Notes under the pieces: generated by a model
What the model was told of the DNA's origin: nothing
The model's input: the letters and a program-made list of their open reading frames with translations, nothing else
Databases searched by the model: none
Made by a program: the position numbers and the translations under genes
Shown: piece after piece, positions 3,758 through 10,273 of the stretch
Numbering within the stretch: position 1 is the first letter of the stretch
How the letters are laid out: every line of letters begins with the position of its first letter
NCBI GenBank assembly: GCA_007376205.1
Contig: VMFU01000006.1
Location: 1-60,729 of the forward strand
Source: Candidatus Peregrinibacteria bacterium Gr01-1014_25
GTDB lineage: Bacteria > Patescibacteriota > Gracilibacteria > Peribacterales > Peribacteraceae
Reading direction: 5' to 3'
DNA: 60,729 nucleotides

Positions 3758-3833
3758 GGGGCTGTAGCTCAGCTGGTAGAGCACCTGCTTTGCAAGCAGG
3801 GGGTCAGGAGTTCGAATCTCCTCAGCTCCACCA
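3758..3833 (+). tRNA. tRNA-Ala (TGC)
   Basis: A 76-nt cloverleaf with acceptor GGGGCTG/CAGCTCC including the alanine-identity G3:U70 wobble, D arm GCTC/GAGC, anticodon loop TTTGCAA (anticodon TGC), T arm AGGAG/CTCCT with GTTCGAAT, discriminator A and encoded CCA. Its 3' end is repeated at 6075-6103 and 8295-8334, so it looks like the attachment target of the AT-rich island. Confidence 0.97.
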
Positions 3834-3900
3834 CTCGGGAAATGGAACTTCGAAAATGGCGTTTCAGTAAATAATTTTGCACTTATAGGCGATTCTAGGA

Positions 3901-3913
3901 GAGTTCCCAATCG
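3901..3913 (+). repeat. island repeat, half-site 1
   Basis: GAGTTCCCAATCG matches the 5' half of the full repeat at 8304-8316 over 13 of 13 bases. A second short copy, GAGTTCCCAA, lies at 3981-3990. The first is also the left arm of an imperfect inverted repeat with TTGGGAGAATTC just downstream (about 3926-3937). Confidence 0.55.
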
Positions 3914-4032
3914 AAATTTCTGACTTGGGAGAATTCTTAGTGCGGACTGCCTCAAGTGGCTATGTGTTGCGGTTTTCTCGGAGTTCCCAAAGTGAAAAAC
4001 TACTCTGCTTATCTTTGAACTAGAATATCAAC

Positions 4033-4842
4033 ATGACTTGGGTAATAGGGACACCTATCACATTCGGCTACTCATTATTAATCGGTGATATCCGAGTAAC
4101 CATGCCTGAGGGAAAAACTTTTGATGGAGTCAGAAAAGTTGCCGGAATTTGCAATGGTCTTCTTGGAGGCTTCGCGGGAAATATATTTCAAGGCTTAGCC
4201 ATCATGGAGCACTTTGCAGCAGTAGCAAAATTGCCAGATGGGCATGCATGGCTACCTGAGCATTTAATTGAAAAATGCCCGCCAATAATGAGAAAAATTT
4301 ATGAGGATACTGAGAGACTTGTTAAAAAGGAATATGCCGGTGTTCAGATAATGCTTGCTGGTATCCACCCAACTGCAAATGTCCCTAAAGATACTTCTTG
4401 GCCACTTCCATACTGTTATATTTTTCGTTCACCATATTTTGTACCAGAGGAAGTACCACGAGGCACAGTGCAATCGATAGGAAGTGGGTCTGCCGTTGAA
4501 GAGTATGTTTCCGAATTGGAGAACCTAAGCGATTTCAAGAGAGTTATGGGTCTGATGAAGTTTGAGGCTGGTGATCCAGGGGGTTTTGGGAAAATACTCA
4601 GTCATATAATTGGCGGTGTTGCAGGACGCCAACTCGTACCGGGCATTAGTCCACATCTTCATATTTGTATGGTTTCAAGAAATGAAATGAATGAAAGGAC
4701 TAACGATCGTGTACATTTTGGGGCGAACCAAGAAGAAATTAAATTTTCAATGCCACCAGTAGCGCATTCATGGGAAGAGTTTCAAAGTATGACAAAAGAA
4801 ATGGGCTTTGCGTCAGATGAGCTCAAAGCCTTTATTGGTTAA
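4033..4842 (+). CDS. proteasome/HslV-like Ntn hydrolase
   Basis: A 269-residue protein resembling N-terminal-nucleophile peptidases of the proteasome beta/HslV fold. Met1 is followed by Thr2, the candidate nucleophile after Met removal. Asp19 (GDIRVT) and Lys35 (VRKV) sit where HslV has its catalytic Asp17 and Lys33, followed by GGFAG and, at about 150-154, the GSGSA motif of beta-type subunits. The C-terminal third is unmatched. No HslU-like ATPase is adjacent. TAGAAT (4021-4026) lies 6 nt before the ATG, implying a leaderless transcript. AT-rich codon use marks it as island cargo. Fold assignment is fairly confident; substrate and role are unknown. Confidence 0.7.
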   Translation: MTWVIGTPITFGYSLLIGDIRVTMPEGKTFDGVRKVAGICNGLLGGFAGNIFQGLAIMEHFAAVAKLPDGHAWLPEHLIEKCPPIMRKIYEDTERLVKKEYAGVQIMLAGIHPTANVPKDTSWPLPYCYIFRSPYFVPEEVPRGTVQSIGSGSAVEEYVSELENLSDFKRVMGLMKFEAGDPGGFGKILSHIIGGVAGRQLVPGISPHLHICMVSRNEMNERTNDRVHFGANQEEIKFSMPPVAHSWEEFQSMTKEMGFASDELKAFIG

Positions 4843-4867
4843 AGCGAACCACATAAAGTGTGAGATA

Positions 4868-5581
4868 TCACTCAAAGACGTATTCTTTTCGTGCTGGATC
4901 CCACACGAGATTGTCAGCTTCACTCTCCAGTAGAAGCATAATTCTATCTGCAACGTCATCTGCAGTGCTCACAACACCCCAGTTTGCGAGTGCTTGTTTG
5001 TCATACTCTTCTTCGGAAGCGAAACCAGCCATGGTCATCGGTGTCTTTACTGCACCAGGATAAATTGCTTTCACGCGCAGATCAGGGCGATCAGCTCGTA
5101 GTGCGCCAATCATCTCATGCACCAGCCCCTTGCTGAGACTATATGGACGCACCTTCGGCGCGGACATTCGCTGCCCCGGAGGACCACCGACTGTCGAACA
5201 CATCTGAATGATCGTCGCACCCTCTACAAGTTTGTCCTGATCAAGTGCTGTTTTAAGGGTGAGCCACGAACCGAGAGCATTTACTTCCAGCATCTTACGA
5301 AACTGGTCATGCGATACATCGAATAAGCCGCCGCGTGCCAGCACACCTGCATTATTAAACAGGACATTGAGCTTTCCCGTTACGTCGCTCATACCGCGTG
5401 CCACTTGTTCAGGATCTCGGACATCAACAGAGTGAGATGTGATGCCATCGATTTCCTTCAAGGGAACTTGTGCATCGAATGAATGCACCTTGCTACCTTT
5501 CTGGACAAAGCGTTCCGCAACCGCAAGACCCATACCACTACTCGCGCCAGTGATGAGAGATTGCGTACCTTCGAGCTTCAT
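4868..5581 (-). CDS. short-chain dehydrogenase/reductase (SDR)
   Basis: A 237-residue classical SDR oxidoreductase. It shows the Rossmann dinucleotide motif TGASSGMG (11-18), an Asp at the end of strand beta-3 (DVRD), NNAG (76-79) and the catalytic Ser129, Tyr147 and Lys151. Asp-rich residues after beta-2 suggest NAD over NADP, but that is weak. The substrate cannot be predicted. The start follows the stop of the upstream 5586-5912 gene by 4 nt, so both form one minus-strand unit inside the island. Confidence 0.9.
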   Translation of the reverse strand: MKLEGTQSLITGASSGMGLAVAERFVQKGSKVHSFDAQVPLKEIDGITSHSVDVRDPEQVARGMSDVTGKLNVLFNNAGVLARGGLFDVSHDQFRKMLEVNALGSWLTLKTALDQDKLVEGATIIQMCSTVGGPPGQRMSAPKVRPYSLSKGLVHEMIGALRADRPDLRVKAIYPGAVKTPMTMAGFASEEEYDKQALANWGVVSTADDVADRIMLLLESEADNLVWDPARKEYVFE

Positions 5582-5585
5582 AGGA

Positions 5586-5912
5586 TTAATTGGACTGGAT
5601 TTGCAACTTCCTCAGAGCCTCGAGGAGAGCTTCGTGAGCGCGATAGGATGCAGCTTCATCTGGTGTGCTGCTCACATCTAGTTCTTCGAGTAATTCCTCT
5701 AGTCTAGTTCGCACACTTACAATCATGTAATCGTATCCACGTTGATTGTATTCAGCCTGCGCCGCATCGAGAGTGCTGTTCAAAACATCAGTCGGCAGTG
5801 GCCTGCTGAATTTGCCTTCATAGATTCGTGCCGTGTCCTGTAGGACGTGTGCTTTCTCGAATGCCATAGGAAACACATTTTGTACATAAAGACCTATTAC
5901 GTCAATCAACAT
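5586..5912 (-). CDS. hypothetical protein co-transcribed with SDR
   Basis: A 108-residue, mostly helical protein of unknown family with an acidic C-terminal helix. ATG at 5912 is immediately next to the island repeat at 5918-5948. An internal ATG at 5867 gives a 93-residue alternative. Its stop lies 4 nt before the SDR start, implying coupling. No domain is recognised. Confidence 0.55.
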   Translation of the reverse strand: MLIDVIGLYVQNVFPMAFEKAHVLQDTARIYEGKFSRPLPTDVLNSTLDAAQAEYNQRGYDYMIVSVRTRLEELLEELDVSSTPDEAASYRAHEALLEALRKLQIQSN

Positions 5913-5917
5913 CCGAA

Positions 5918-5948
5918 AGTTCCCAACTATTCCCGACAGCTCATTGAC
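5918..5948 (+). repeat. island repeat, full copy D (ATTGAC type)
   Basis: 31 nt starting AGTTCCCAA and ending CAGCTCATTGAC; 27 of 31 positions match the copy at 8134-8164. The core CAGCTC equals the tRNA-Ala acceptor 3' strand. From here to the next copy at 6075 no convincing gene is seen, only a 34-codon helical fragment on the minus strand near 5959-6063. Confidence 0.7.
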
Positions 5949-6074
5949 TGATTTCTAGTTACAGGATCAGATGTTCTTTTTCCTCAACTTGGCTGTTCAG
6001 CAGCAATGTGATGTTTTCGAGTGAGTAATGGAGTTCTGTGAACTTTTTGGCCAATTCAAGCATATCGAAATTTC

Positions 6075-6103
6075 GTTCCCACCAGTTCCCCTCAGCTCCA
6101 CCA
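6075..6103 (+). repeat. island repeat, full copy E (CCA type)
   Basis: 29 nt with GTTCCCA at the left and CAGCTCCACCA at the right; 25 of 29 positions match the copy at 8306-8334. The last 14 bases equal the end of tRNA-Ala. A terminator follows 35 nt later, so this may be the displaced original downstream flank of the tRNA. Confidence 0.75.
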
Positions 6104-6138
6104 TGACAACTATGCACACTTTGATCGAGTTTGCTCAC

Positions 6139-6161
6139 AAAGCGCCACTTGGCGCTTTTTT
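6139..6161 (+). terminator. rho-independent terminator
   Basis: AAGCGCC/GGCGCTT stem with a four-base loop (ACTT) and a run of six Ts. It lies 36 nt downstream of the tRNA-end copy at 6103 and could originally have terminated the tRNA-Ala transcript. Confidence 0.85.
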
Positions 6162-6264
6162 GTTGCACTTAGGTTGAGTCTGCACACTTCGTGCGACTTT
6201 GCATACTCATCGGTTTAAGTCCCTTCAGCTTCAATCGAATATACTGTTTCGCTATACTGACCAC

Positions 6265-6903
6265 ATGTTTGGACACAAAAAAGATCGGCATGTTGTTGAA
6301 TTGATAGTCCAATTTAATTTAACCGCAATTGATACGTGGCTACACGACGGTGCGAAGATTGAAAACATCGAGGTAGGTAAGAAATGGCAAACGGAAGATA
6401 TAATTAAGAGTTATTTCGTAGATATTTTACCTTCGGGAAATAACTCGTTGATATTTTTTCATCGTGAATCCAAAAAATTTGCAAATTCTCTAGCAGCTTC
6501 TGACTGGATAAATATTGAAGATTTGATGAAGGTGAAGAGTTCGTCTAAATCCCACGGGAAAAAGAATGAGATCCAGGGATTTGAATGGGAATTTTGGCAT
6601 GACTTCATTTGTACCTATGTGCATGTTAATGGAACGCGAGCTTACTTACTCGCCGCTCCTTTTGATGAAATTTACCGACTGCATACCGTAGGGGAATTAG
6701 AGACCAAAAAATTTGAAGGAGATAGCAATGTAATAGAGGTCCCTAGTCGTTGGGATGAAAAAGGTGGCTATGATTATAAGAATTCTCTCAAGATACAGCG
6801 ACGATGCAATCAACGGTCTGTTGGCTACAGCAACTCGCTAGCATGCGTATCTGCGAATGTTTCTAACTCACAGGTCTTGTATTGCGATCCACTGGCACAA
6901 TAA
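6265..6903 (+). CDS. hypothetical protein, possible 3' frameshift
   Basis: A 212-residue AT-rich island protein without a recognised family; it has an aromatic-rich central part. ATG 6265 is chosen over an upstream ATG (6199) because TATACT (6253-6258) lies exactly 6 nt upstream. After about residue 175 the sequence becomes Cys/Ser-rich and unlike the rest. The +1 frame from about 6800 reads DDAINGLLATATR and stops at 6841, which looks like a more natural end, so a single-base indel near 6795-6802 is suspected. Confidence 0.55.
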   Translation: MFGHKKDRHVVELIVQFNLTAIDTWLHDGAKIENIEVGKKWQTEDIIKSYFVDILPSGNNSLIFFHRESKKFANSLAASDWINIEDLMKVKSSSKSHGKKNEIQGFEWEFWHDFICTYVHVNGTRAYLLAAPFDEIYRLHTVGELETKKFEGDSNVIEVPSRWDEKGGYDYKNSLKIQRRCNQRSVGYSNSLACVSANVSNSQVLYCDPLAQ

Positions 6904-6979
6904 AGCGCAGCGGGTGATAAGGCACAAATTCCTGGAACCACATTGAACTTGCAATCTTTTGCCATAGGAGCGTCTTCGC

Positions 6980-7180
6980 TTGAACATACTTCTCAAACAA
7001 TTCTATGGTCTGCCCACTATGACTGCCGACTTCAGAGACAAACTGCCTGAGAAATGGAAGAACTATGATTTTACGAATGCGATTGGACTTTTGTTGCTGA
7101 TAAAAGAGATTCAGGAACAGGAACCGCTCGATGATCCGAATGTGCTGAAGGTAGATGAAGATGGGACGCGGTTGTATTAG
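6980..7180 (+). CDS. small hypothetical ORF
   Basis: 66 codons from a TTG start with an AGGAG-like sequence (6966-6970) upstream. It ends overlapping the stop of the convergent 7177-8091 gene by 4 nt. The peptide is polar with one hydrophobic helix (IGLLLLIK). It may be a remnant of a degraded gene; there is no family match. Confidence 0.3.
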   Translation: MNILLKQFYGLPTMTADFRDKLPEKWKNYDFTNAIGLLLLIKEIQEQEPLDDPNVLKVDEDGTRLY

Positions 7181-8091
7181 AGTAGTCCTTCTACTTCTCC
7201 ATCTACGGGATATGAAATGAATGTGGTTAATTTAGCTAACGGTTCTACGGAAATCTCAGTCGGATTTGCAACAAGAGTCCAGTGATCTTCAATGTCTCTG
7301 TGGGTCAGGGTTTCTGTTTTTAGTTTACTAGTGGTTATTACGTTAGTCATTTCATCTTTGAATCCTGAAACTTCTAGTAATGGCCACCATCCGAAGAATA
7401 GTCGCTTCTGTACATTAATTGTTGCTTTGACTTTGACCTTACAAAAGCGGTCTTCATATATTTTTGTTACCGGAATATCCAAAAATTCAACTTCCGAATA
7501 TTCTCCTGGCTCCATCGGCAGGGCTTTTGCATTCCACTTTTTCAATAGTAAATCCATGACTTTTCCTAAGGGTTTCTGATCTTCACCGTATAACACTACG
7601 TTCCTCATATCTGCTTCATGTGCATAAAAGCCTATTCGGTCTGTGGAGGAAAAGATAAGACCAAAGCTCTTTAGGCATAACTCTTCGCAAGTCGCCGGAA
7701 TCGCGATCTTGCTTTGCCAGTCATGATTTTCAGCATCCACCAATTGGTAAAGATTGATTCCTTTTGTTGCTGCTAGCTGTTTAGCTCCATCAGTGAATCC
7801 ATTCGCCGCCACCATTGCACCCTGGTTCGCTCTCACATCCTCAATGACAGATGCAAAAGCACCGACATCCTCAACATCTACAGGGTCTTTATGATCTTTG
7901 CAGCTTATGATAATAAGAAGGTCGTATTGTCCTGTTCGCACTTTTACACTCACATCGATTTGTCTTTCCTTGCCGGAATCCTTTCCTGCAATCTTATCGT
8001 TATGCGTAACCGTCGCTTTTGGGGCTAAATCCTGCTGAACTTTCGCAACAAGCTTCTCAAAGCGTTTCCATTTTGGATCAACATTTGTCAT
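7177..8091 (-). CDS. Mrr-like restriction endonuclease domain protein
   Basis: A 304-residue protein. The N-terminal half matches the PD-(D/E)xK fold of Mrr-type nucleases: an Asp in RQIDV, then ISCKD at the strand carrying the catalytic Lys, and the family tail pattern GAMVAANGFTDGAKQLA...INLYQL. The x-K motif is S-C-K rather than the usual E-x-K or Q-x-K. The C-terminal half (about 150-304) is beta-rich and unassigned. ATG 8091 is chosen because the frame farther upstream runs through the island repeats. The gene begins 43 nt inside the repeat at 8134. A role in DNA restriction or defence is plausible; no methylase is nearby. Confidence 0.7.
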   Translation of the reverse strand: MTNVDPKWKRFEKLVAKVQQDLAPKATVTHNDKIAGKDSGKERQIDVSVKVRTGQYDLLIIISCKDHKDPVDVEDVGAFASVIEDVRANQGAMVAANGFTDGAKQLAATKGINLYQLVDAENHDWQSKIAIPATCEELCLKSFGLIFSSTDRIGFYAHEADMRNVVLYGEDQKPLGKVMDLLLKKWNAKALPMEPGEYSEVEFLDIPVTKIYEDRFCKVKVKATINVQKRLFFGWWPLLEVSGFKDEMTNVITTSKLKTETLTHRDIEDHWTLVANPTEISVEPLAKLTTFISYPVDGEVEGLL

Positions 8092-8133
8092 GTTGGTAAA
8101 ATACCATTCATAGTTACTTTTGAGGATTCCAAA

Positions 8134-8164
8134 AGTTCCCAATCGTTCCCCACAGCTCATTGAC
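8134..8164 (+). repeat. island repeat, full copy F (ATTGAC type)
   Basis: 31 nt. Its first 25 bases are identical to 8305-8329 (copy G), while the last six (ATTGAC) match copy D. No gene is visible between copies F and G. Confidence 0.8.
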
Positions 8165-8294
8165 GACATACACGTTTTCATAGTGTAAGAGCACATTCCA
8201 CCGCTTGTGGACTCTTGAGAATATTTTTGACGAAATGCAGAGAATTCCTCAGCCCGATGAGCCTTTCTGATAGAGTAAGTGCATCCACTTTCTT

Positions 8295-8334
8295 GGGGCT
8301 GTCGAGTTCCCAATCGTTCCCCACAGCTCCACCA
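8295..8334 (+). repeat. island repeat, terminal copy G with tRNA-Ala mini-acceptor
   Basis: A 40-nt element: GGGGCTGT (8295-8302) pairs with ACAGCTCC (8323-8330) with a G.T at the third pair as in tRNA-Ala, followed by A and CCA. The interior contains the island repeat (8305-8329). It looks like a collapsed tRNA-Ala copy at the right island boundary, 4 nt before the stop codon of the GNAT-like gene. Confidence 0.75.
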
Positions 8335-8338
8335 CATT

Positions 8339-8958: not shown

Positions 8959-10107
8959 TCACGTTACAATCTCATGCAGCCGGCCATCACGGGCGGCTTC
9001 GCTGATCTCCATCGCGATGCGCTCGCCCATGGTCAGCGGTTTGCGGTGCAGGTACATGCCGTAAGGCGTCGCGGCGATGCCCGGGCACGTCGTGGGGCGG
9101 AAGCAGACGCCGAACAGAACGATCTCCTCGCGCCCACCCTCCGCGGCGATCACGCCCTGGAGCGTGAACGGACCGACCATGCCCTTGCCGGTCGGATCGA
9201 TCTCGCGCGGGAGCGACTGCGTCACGCCGAGGAAATCTTCGGCCAGGCCGAAGGCGCCGTCGACGAGCGACTCGCGGAGCGTGGATGGCGTGTGGCCGAC
9301 CTCGACCATCTGCAACGGAACGTGACCCAGCACGATCTTCTGCTGCGATGGCGTCATGCGTTGCAGCCCCTCGATGTTCGTCTGGCGGCGGACGTCGATG
9401 CCGACCAATTCCAATTCGCTGTGGAGCGGCGAGAAGAAGAAATGGAAGTTCACGAGCGCACCGACGACGTACTCCTCGATGACGGCTCTCTCCAGTTCCT
9501 TGGGTGCGATCTGCCCGAGCTTGATGCGGCGTTGAGCTTCCTCTTCGAAACTCTCCTTGTCCCATGCCAGGAAGAACGTCCGGCCGTATCCGCGCAGTTC
9601 ATCGCGGACTTTGACGATGGCAAGGCGGTCGATATCCTCGGGCGCATTGAACCTTCTGGGGATGCGGATGCCCGCCTCCGATAAGAGGTCGCGCTGCGTG
9701 TAGGGCTGATCGCGTCCCTCCAGCCGCAGGAGCGAGCGCGAGCCGAACATCGGCACGTCGAACGCCTGCTCCACGTCGCCGTACGACGGGAAGCGGCGCC
9801 AGAAGTATTTGCTCTGAATGAAGATCGCGTTGCGCGCGCGCAGGTCGGCGCGCACCTCTTTCGTGAGGACGTCGGTGAGTTCCTCGACCACGAGCACGTC
9901 GTCGACGCACCCCGCTTCCTCCTTCCCGCGCTTTCGCGTCTTGTAGTGCTTGGCGTAGAGCGGTTCGCGGCCTTGCCGCGCCACCACCAGGCTCTTCAAA
10001 CCGCACTGCTTCGCGCCGTGAGCGATATCGAGTGCGTTGCGACCGCCGAAGCAGGCGATCGTCAGGTGCTTGGCGTCGTAGCCGTCGAGCAGGAGTCCGG
10101 TGTCCAC
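8959..10107 (-). CDS. purP: PurP-like ATP-grasp ligase (FAICAR synthetase family)
   Basis: A 382-residue protein resembling archaeal PurP, which uses formate and ATP to formylate AICAR in purine synthesis. Matching landmarks in order are HLTIACFGGRNALDIAHGAK at the N-terminus, an R-IPRRF-x4-DIDRLAIVKV strand, EEYVVGALVNFHFFFSP and GIDVRRQTNIEGLQR. No ATG fits after the overlapping tRNA-Cys; GTG 10107 is preferred because the conserved region begins soon after and TAGACT lies 10 nt upstream. The family match is good; AICAR as substrate is not proven here, since related CPR proteins could have diverged. Confidence 0.75.
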   Translation of the reverse strand: MDTGLLLDGYDAKHLTIACFGGRNALDIAHGAKQCGLKSLVVARQGREPLYAKHYKTRKRGKEEAGCVDDVLVVEELTDVLTKEVRADLRARNAIFIQSKYFWRRFPSYGDVEQAFDVPMFGSRSLLRLEGRDQPYTQRDLLSEAGIRIPRRFNAPEDIDRLAIVKVRDELRGYGRTFFLAWDKESFEEEAQRRIKLGQIAPKELERAVIEEYVVGALVNFHFFFSPLHSELELVGIDVRRQTNIEGLQRMTPSQQKIVLGHVPLQMVEVGHTPSTLRESLVDGAFGLAEDFLGVTQSLPREIDPTGKGMVGPFTLQGVIAAEGGREEIVLFGVCFRPTTCPGIAATPYGMYLHRKPLTMGERIAMEISEAARDGRLHEIVT

Positions 10108-10198
10108 GGGCGCGAGCAGTCTAGGGGTTGAACGGAAAAAGAAAAGTCCACCCACCTTCCGCCGCGTAGTCCCATCGCTTATGCTCTCCAGTGTCACT

Positions 10199-10273
10199 GG
10201 TGCCGTAGCCAAGCAGTAAGGCAAGGGTCTGCAAAACCCTCATACGCGGGTGCGATTCCCGCCGGCACCTCCA
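10199..10273 (+). tRNA. tRNA-Cys (GCA)
   Basis: 75 nt: acceptor GGTGCCG/CGGCACC, anticodon stem AGGGT/ACCCT with loop CTGCAAA (GCA), T arm GCGGG/CCCGC, discriminator T73 typical of cysteine and encoded CCA. TATGCT at 10180-10185 is a plausible -10 box. Confidence 0.96.

Follow-up and report, generated by a model that had tools for sequence, protein, structure and literature searches.

A tandem of two integrase-less cassettes, probably dependent on a large serine recombinase, at the 3′ end of a tRNA-Ala gene in a Candidatus Peregrinibacteria genome

Results

Two AT-rich units lie behind a tRNA-Ala gene

The window, a stretch of 60,729 nucleotides from Candidatus Peregrinibacteria bacterium Gr01-1014_25 (contig VMFU01000006.1), contains a tRNA-Ala(TGC) gene (3758–3833, plus strand, ARAGORN) followed by an array of repeats and cassettes, which is the subject of this study. 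The array occupies the 4.5 kb behind the tRNA, ends at 8334 and is AT-rich, as the first-pass annotation of this DNA had stated, with a GC content of 41–50% against about 62% in the surroundings. The four full repeat copies reported there are present and exact, with starts placed here at 5919, 6075, 8135 and 8306: a search of the 1.12-Mb genome for GTTCCCANNNNTTCCC gave four perfect matches and no more, all of them in the array, and an extended pattern including CAGCTC gave four matches in the array and none in a reversed control. As the exact repeats occur at the tRNA locus only, they are not a motif dispersed over the genome, which the annotation had named as an outcome that would count against it. 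The two half-copies (GTTCCCAA at 3903 and 3983) were also found, at conserved positions of the left end of the first element, and the absence of any recombinase from the array was confirmed.

Two other parts of the earlier description did not hold. The copies had been treated as equivalent, but they are paired as a site A followed by a site B, each pair closing one element. Site A (5919 and 8135) continues as CAGCTCATTGA and site B (6075 and 8306) as CAGCTCCACCA, so that the whole tRNA end is carried by B alone and is absent from A; the A-to-B distance is 156 nt in the first pair and 171 nt in the second. Nor is the repeat wholly derived from the tRNA, as its identity to the tRNA is limited to the last 8–11 nt, the rest fitting the attP half-site of a large serine recombinase (LSR; see below). 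Each unit extends from just past one ...CTCCACCA core up to the next such core, and the general plan is a conserved left module, variable cargo, site A, a 120–150-bp tail segment on the minus strand and site B. The left modules fall into several families, alpha, beta and zeta among them.

The first element, E1 (3834–6103, plus strand, 2270 bp, 46% GC), has an alpha left end and a right end of the 156 type. Its alpha module (3834–3995, plus strand) is non-coding, is conserved in 11 elements and contains the GTTC sites L1 (3903–3910) and L2 (3983–3990); alpha conservation spans about 160–180 nt and ends directly past the second GTTC site. A coding role for alpha left ends was considered and rejected (omega about 0.5–1, with stops). 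The cargo consists of an open reading frame (ORF) of 269 aa (4033–4842, plus strand) with no family match, an SDR (short-chain dehydrogenase/reductase) oxidoreductase (4868–5581, minus strand, PF00106) and an ORF of 108 aa (5586–5912, minus strand), again with no family match. Site A (GTTCCCAACTATTCCCGACAGCTC, 5919–5942, plus strand) is followed by the tail coding segment (5959–6102, minus strand), which reads GGAEGNWWERNFDMLELAKKFTELHYSLENITLLLNSQVEEKEHLIL and then a stop and has no start codon, and by site B (6075–6103, plus strand), an attP-type half-site plus the core CAGCTCCACCA with its GTTC 29 nt from the end.

The second element, E2 (6104–8334, plus strand, 2231 bp, 42% GC), has a beta left end and a right end of the 171 type. 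The beta module (6104–6236, plus strand) includes a terminator hairpin at about 6140–6161, both stem sides of which are changed in the beta cassette of locus L045, and a sequence resembling the 3′ end of tRNA-Ala(CGC), GGTTTAAGTCCCTTCAGCT, at 6212–6230. The idea that the beta left end is a native tRNA trailer was rejected, as it is not present at empty sites. Cargo comprises an ORF of 212 aa (6265–6903, plus strand) with no family match and an Mrr-type restriction endonuclease (7177–8091, minus strand, PF04471); between these lies a 53-aa hallmark ORF (7019–7180, plus strand). Site A (GTTCCCAATCGTTCCCCACAGCTC, 8135–8158, plus strand), a tail coding segment (8178–8333, minus strand, GGAVGNDWELDSPKKVDALTLSERLIGLRNSLHFVKNILKSPQAVECALTL followed by a stop) and site B (8306–8334, plus strand), again an attP-type half-site plus core and here also the right boundary of the array, complete the element. 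Among the gene labels given earlier, SDR and Mrr (Mrr_cat) are borne out by Pfam, but 'Ntn hydrolase' had no Pfam or NCBIfam match. The 53-aa ORF occurs at about 45–90% identity in all seven type-171 cassettes and in several of other types, with a conserved upstream region; it has no Pfam or other family match and was not found in 156-type or LSR elements. At a guess, its product is a candidate directionality factor.

Elements are gained and lost at tRNA-Ala genes in relatives

Among 144 genomes searched the composite repeat was found in eight, that of the window included, mostly beside tRNA-Ala genes with anticodon TGC, GGC or CGC and in other genera as well. The A–B spacing where it could be read was 156 or 171 nt (155 in L109). 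In an alignment of these modules conservation runs from A to B only, both outer flanks being unrelated. A profile search with the module peptide reached 15 genomes of the same family and gave one weak match outside it, and further cassettes were read in G043, G022 and G040, with one at the transfer-messenger RNA (tmRNA) gene in L116. Altogether, equivalent elements of 0.75–5 kb with unrelated cargo were seen in about 18 genomes of the family, at tRNA-Ala and once at tmRNA; the named records that carry them are Candidatus Peribacteria/Peregrinibacteria, and one cassette, of 1.3 kb, comes from a groundwater genome (L250). Most other tRNA-Ala sites examined had no further cores. Three junction patterns gave no match in viral contigs (IMG/VR), a scan for which the tail profile was too diverse.

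Empty tRNA-Ala loci were sought in relatives and found in syntenic positions. Between tRNA-Ala and a gene for a 421-aa protein (8959–10224 in the window) G016 has 468 nt and G006 has 387 nt, neither with a cassette; G012 has 1266 nt, of which a cassette takes up 1257, and the window has about 5.1 kb. The same genes standing in place in relatives with no repeat-bounded gain or loss, the other outcome that would have spoken against the annotation, is therefore not what is seen, and its central proposal, that repeat-bounded elements without a recombinase are gained and lost at tRNA-Ala in tandem and with varied cargo, is supported. Tandem arrays occur elsewhere in L044 (three elements), L045 and L108. 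Cargo ranges over SDR, Mrr nuclease, a C5 methyltransferase with Vsr and an OLD/Gabija-like ATPase, a cyclase of the CBASS (cyclic-oligonucleotide-based antiphage signalling system) type and proteins with no assigned role. A methyltransferase and its neighbouring ORF are common to two genera at 95–97% protein identity, and a further cargo gene occurs at two Ala isoacceptor sites with 82% identity.

Two further features of tRNA-Ala surroundings were recorded. An inverted repeat, CACTTCGCTCG...GCGAGCTTCGCGTGG, lies directly behind the tRNA in L161, L169, L170, L174, L183 and L113 and resembles a native trailer or some other small element. Moreover, tRNA-Ala genes or their 3′ ends are tandemly duplicated 80–1400 bp apart in L169 (995–2468), L184 and L188.

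The right ends have the geometry of a serine recombinase attP half-site

In LSRs the motif bound by the zinc domain lies 5 bp further from the centre of the site in attP than in attB (PMC3783163). The T-loop GTTC of tRNA-Ala is 24 nt from the end of the gene, within an attB-like half-site (GTTCGAATCTCCTCAGCTCCACCA, 3810–3833, plus strand). In 26 of 27 right ends the distance of GTT[CT] from the end is exactly 29 nt (the remaining one has GTTG), which is the same shift of 5 bp. The shift recurs in islands that carry an LSR: GTTC or GTTT is at 29 in three of four right ends of islands at tRNA-Glu (G030, G022 and G038; the fourth has GCTT), and the tmRNA island in G038 and the LSR element at tRNA-Ala in L045 also have it. 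At LSR loci at tRNA-Val (L203) and tRNA-Asn (L191) no convincing right end with GTTC was found. On these distances site B looks like the attP half-site of an LSR, and the T-arm and acceptor end of the tRNA like its attB counterpart.

The letters after GTT vary between elements and agree within one. With the GTTCnn flavours entered by hand, A and B agree in 20 of 23 elements (5.1 expected) and L1 and A in 10 of 10, so that A, B and L1 are probably read by one protein per element. In alpha elements, by inspection, TTCCC is symmetric at positions 9–13 and the outer motif is off by 4 nt relative to a symmetric attP of about 50 bp.

The A–B segment resembles the severed tail of a serine integrase

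Read on the minus strand, the A–B module has a frame that stays open across the core and B and closes at a conserved stop just short of A. It has 47 codons in the 156 type and 51 in the 171 type, and 17 of 17 frames were intact. Omega, obtained as a simple count with no model, is 0.35/0.36 for the cassette tails against about 0.7–1.7 in the other frames, and substitutions favour the third position; the tail is under purifying selection. As there is no conserved start codon, a stand-alone small protein was rejected as the default explanation.

The LSR islands of relatives offer another one. In islands at tRNA-Ala, tRNA-Glu and tmRNA the LSR gene is placed at the tRNA-side end, and when the ends of the five mapped islands (tRNA-Ala in L045, tmRNA in L212, tRNA-Glu in L190, L192 and L202) are joined as they would be in the excised circle, the LSR frame in all five crosses the core and attP into a tail of 33–43 residues at the far end. 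The attP thus lies inside the integrase gene in these islands, and the cassettes hold the tail only. Integration cuts the tail off, and integrated LSRs end in antisense tRNA codons instead, so that the C-terminus of the integrase is changed, as is shown by the sequence; an effect of this change on activity is what we infer from it. Four tails at tRNA-Glu, one of them on an LSR-less second element, have the common motif ITNSxIExMIDWYKVL and an omega of 0.32 in the LSR frame. By comparison with these, the A–B segment of the cassettes looks like the severed C-terminal tail of a serine integrase.

The LSR of L045 has the domains PF00239, PF07508 and PF13408 and lacks the tyrosine recombinase domain Phage_integr_3; two collagen-like repeat proteins adjoin within the same element (L045, 11200–13000). 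The design of the cassettes is not limited to tRNA-Ala, for at tRNA-Glu in G022 (L192, 202–11053) an LSR island has behind it a second element that lacks an LSR and has a tail of its own. Across the class, LSRs (L081–L107) were noted antisense at the 3′ ends of tRNA genes for Glu, Gln, Lys, Asn, Val, Leu, Ser, Pro, Arg and Met and of tmRNA.

Candidate helper integrases

The cassettes encode no LSR of their own. Three cassette genomes hold related LSRs at tmRNA, the 3′ end of which resembles that of tRNA-Ala, and cassettes of left-end family zeta are found at both tRNA-Ala and tmRNA; on this evidence the tmRNA LSRs are candidate helpers. Two LSRs at tRNA-Ala were tried and rejected as the integrase of the cassettes, that of L045, which reads the core in a different frame from the cassette tails, and a second LSR type in G003 (L243, 17178–17253), which ends at the core and whose element has a weak presumed right end without GTTC at −29. 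The genome of the window has a single PF07508 LSR, which lies 7 kb from a tRNA-Gln gene within a prophage-like region, and the sole tyrosine recombinase is one Xer-like protein encoded away from the array; the helper is therefore absent, distant or divergent. The prophage-like region (G000:C8; L048 and L049) includes, besides the LSR, a terminase-like ORF and a helix-turn-helix regulator.

Discussion

We interpret the array as two integrase-less, LSR-dependent cassettes that stand in tandem at the 3′ end of tRNA-Ala and derive from self-splitting serine integrases, and would give this a probability of roughly 0.7. Their sequences are best read as those of elements mobilizable in cis or in trans by an LSR, with the right attP half and the tail kept and the LSR body lost. 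The cassettes would have descended from self-splitting LSRs by loss of that body; an LSR that already sits at a different tRNA or a tmRNA gene, or that arrives with an incoming element, would act as helper in trans, joining B and the left end (together the attP) to the tRNA 3′ end, and repeated use would build arrays. Selection could keep the tail if it completes an LSR gene placed against the right end of the cassette or co-excised with it. A need for an unknown class of recombinase finds no support: beyond its last 8–11 nt the repeat fits an LSR attP half-site, and A and B enclose a coding module that is conserved.

Several observations weigh against this interpretation. No full-length LSR with the tail frame of the cassettes was found in 288 genomes of the class, both LSRs at tRNA-Ala mismatch the cassettes at the core, and the single PF07508 LSR of the window's genome lies in a prophage-like region. 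Known LSR attP sites measure about 50 bp, and the standard model of these enzymes assigns no function to sites A, L1 and L2. The reason for selection on a tail in LSR-less elements is one that we infer; excision, circular forms and helper activity have not been observed, and the named relatives are metagenome assemblies.

The alternative that survives best, though we think it unlikely, is that these are ordinary cis-mobilizable elements (CIMEs), decayed LSR islands left with attL and attR only, in which the tail is a functionless relic and the signal of selection stems from recent LSR-bearing ancestors. E1 and E2 are indeed flanked by att sites without a recombinase of their own, accretion of the kind expected is visible outside the window in L045, where an LSR element is followed by a beta cassette at the same site, and the LSR-less second element with a tail behind the LSR island at tRNA-Glu (L192) would suit it as well. 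CIMEs next to LSR islands at tmRNA have been described in Dehalococcoides, and tandem elements without integrases at tRNA or tmRNA genes are known under that name (PMC3146451); the earlier interpretation as a whole is partly supported. What argues against simple decay is that all 17 tails analysed are intact across very diverse elements, that the LSR body is gone everywhere yet two tail types, site A and the left modules persist, and that no recent LSR-bearing parent was found among the 288 class genomes.

Less probable still is an integron-like platform in which cargo is swapped between site A and an inner half-site that mimics the tRNA (GGTTTAAGTCCCTTCAGCT in beta), both lying within the outer tRNA/B pair. 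In its favour, the variable stretch of cargo has sharp limits at A and at the inner edge of the left module, several elements (L047 for one) have cargo stop codons directly against A, and the beta module of E2 places its tRNA-Ala(CGC)-like 3′ end at the boundary with the cargo (6212–6230). The core past A, however, is ATTGA and not CACCA, the inner mimic is clear in some beta members only and weak in alpha, and no empty platform was seen, though none was specifically searched for. The cassettes are like integron cassettes in being small, promiscuous and stacked at one site with a recombination module at the cassette end; they differ in their tRNA target and in having no integron integrase and no inverted-repeat attC hairpin sites, A and B being direct repeats.

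The array might instead be driven by a tyrosine integrase or the Xer recombinase, for which L1, L2, A and B would serve as arm-type sites: tyrosine integrases typically target tRNA 3′ ends and use arm sites in direct repeat, and the core identity of 8–11 nt would also fit. We regard this as very improbable, given that the single Xer-like protein is the only tyrosine recombinase in the genome and that the +5 shift of GTTC is an LSR signature common to the LSR-bearing islands. Each repeat is short, as would be expected of a non-mobile duplicated motif near the tRNA with no role in recombination, but that explanation is already refuted by the existence of empty and occupied sites, and the fixed architecture with unrelated cargo in many genera, together with shared cargo, also speaks against it.

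Parallels to the LSR-dependent cassettes exist in several known systems. In the ssrA islands of Dehalococcoides the serine recombinase DsiB adjoins attL and is encoded on the reverse strand; these islands lie in tandem at the 3′ end of an alanine-accepting RNA, are in many cases integrase-less and carry low-GC cargo. They differ in owning a six-gene integration module, and the paper, to the extent searched, describes no att-spanning integrase tail, no conserved tail module in integrase-less islands and no A/L1/L2 sites (PMC3146451). Self-splitting integrases have been described as exclusively archaeal tyrosine enzymes: in the suicidal (SSV-type) integrases attP likewise lies inside the integrase gene, which is partitioned on integration, and the partitioned elements depend on an intact integrase in trans (PMC8371274). 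Here, unlike there, the enzymes are serine recombinases of Patescibacteria and only a tail of 33–43 residues is severed. With phage large serine integrases (Listeria A118/LI) the LSRs share the Resolvase, Recombinase and zinc-ribbon domains, a half-site of about 25 bp and an outer motif that in attP stands 5 bp farther out than in attB (PMC3783163); the tRNA/tmRNA 3′-end targets, the gene crossing attP and the extra half-site copies in the cassettes set them apart. As in other tRNA/tmRNA genomic islands (Islander, PMC4383910) a displaced tRNA 3′ fragment marks the right end, whereas islands of that type typically have a tyrosine integrase and a single element. No bacterial or serine self-splitting integrase was found in the open-access literature, and the combination of att-split serine integrases with cassettes that carry the severed tail may be more than a variant of these systems.

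More tentatively, and with rather less confidence than we have in the LSR-dependent cassettes themselves, the 'attP half-site plus integrase tail exon' could be a portable unit that mobilizes any DNA by completing, and maybe re-specifying or licensing, a neighbouring or co-excised integrase, making the arrays of Peribacteria a tail-swapping capture system at alanine tRNAs with defence genes among its cargo. If bacterial serine integrases do split their own gene, the trick would have evolved twice. The cassettes would provide a natural test of what the C-terminal end of an LSR does, a question that bears on genome-writing tools, and would give genes, among them restriction, CBASS-type cyclase and OLD/Gabija-like defence genes, a compact way into the reduced genomes, of about 1 Mb, of Patescibacteria.

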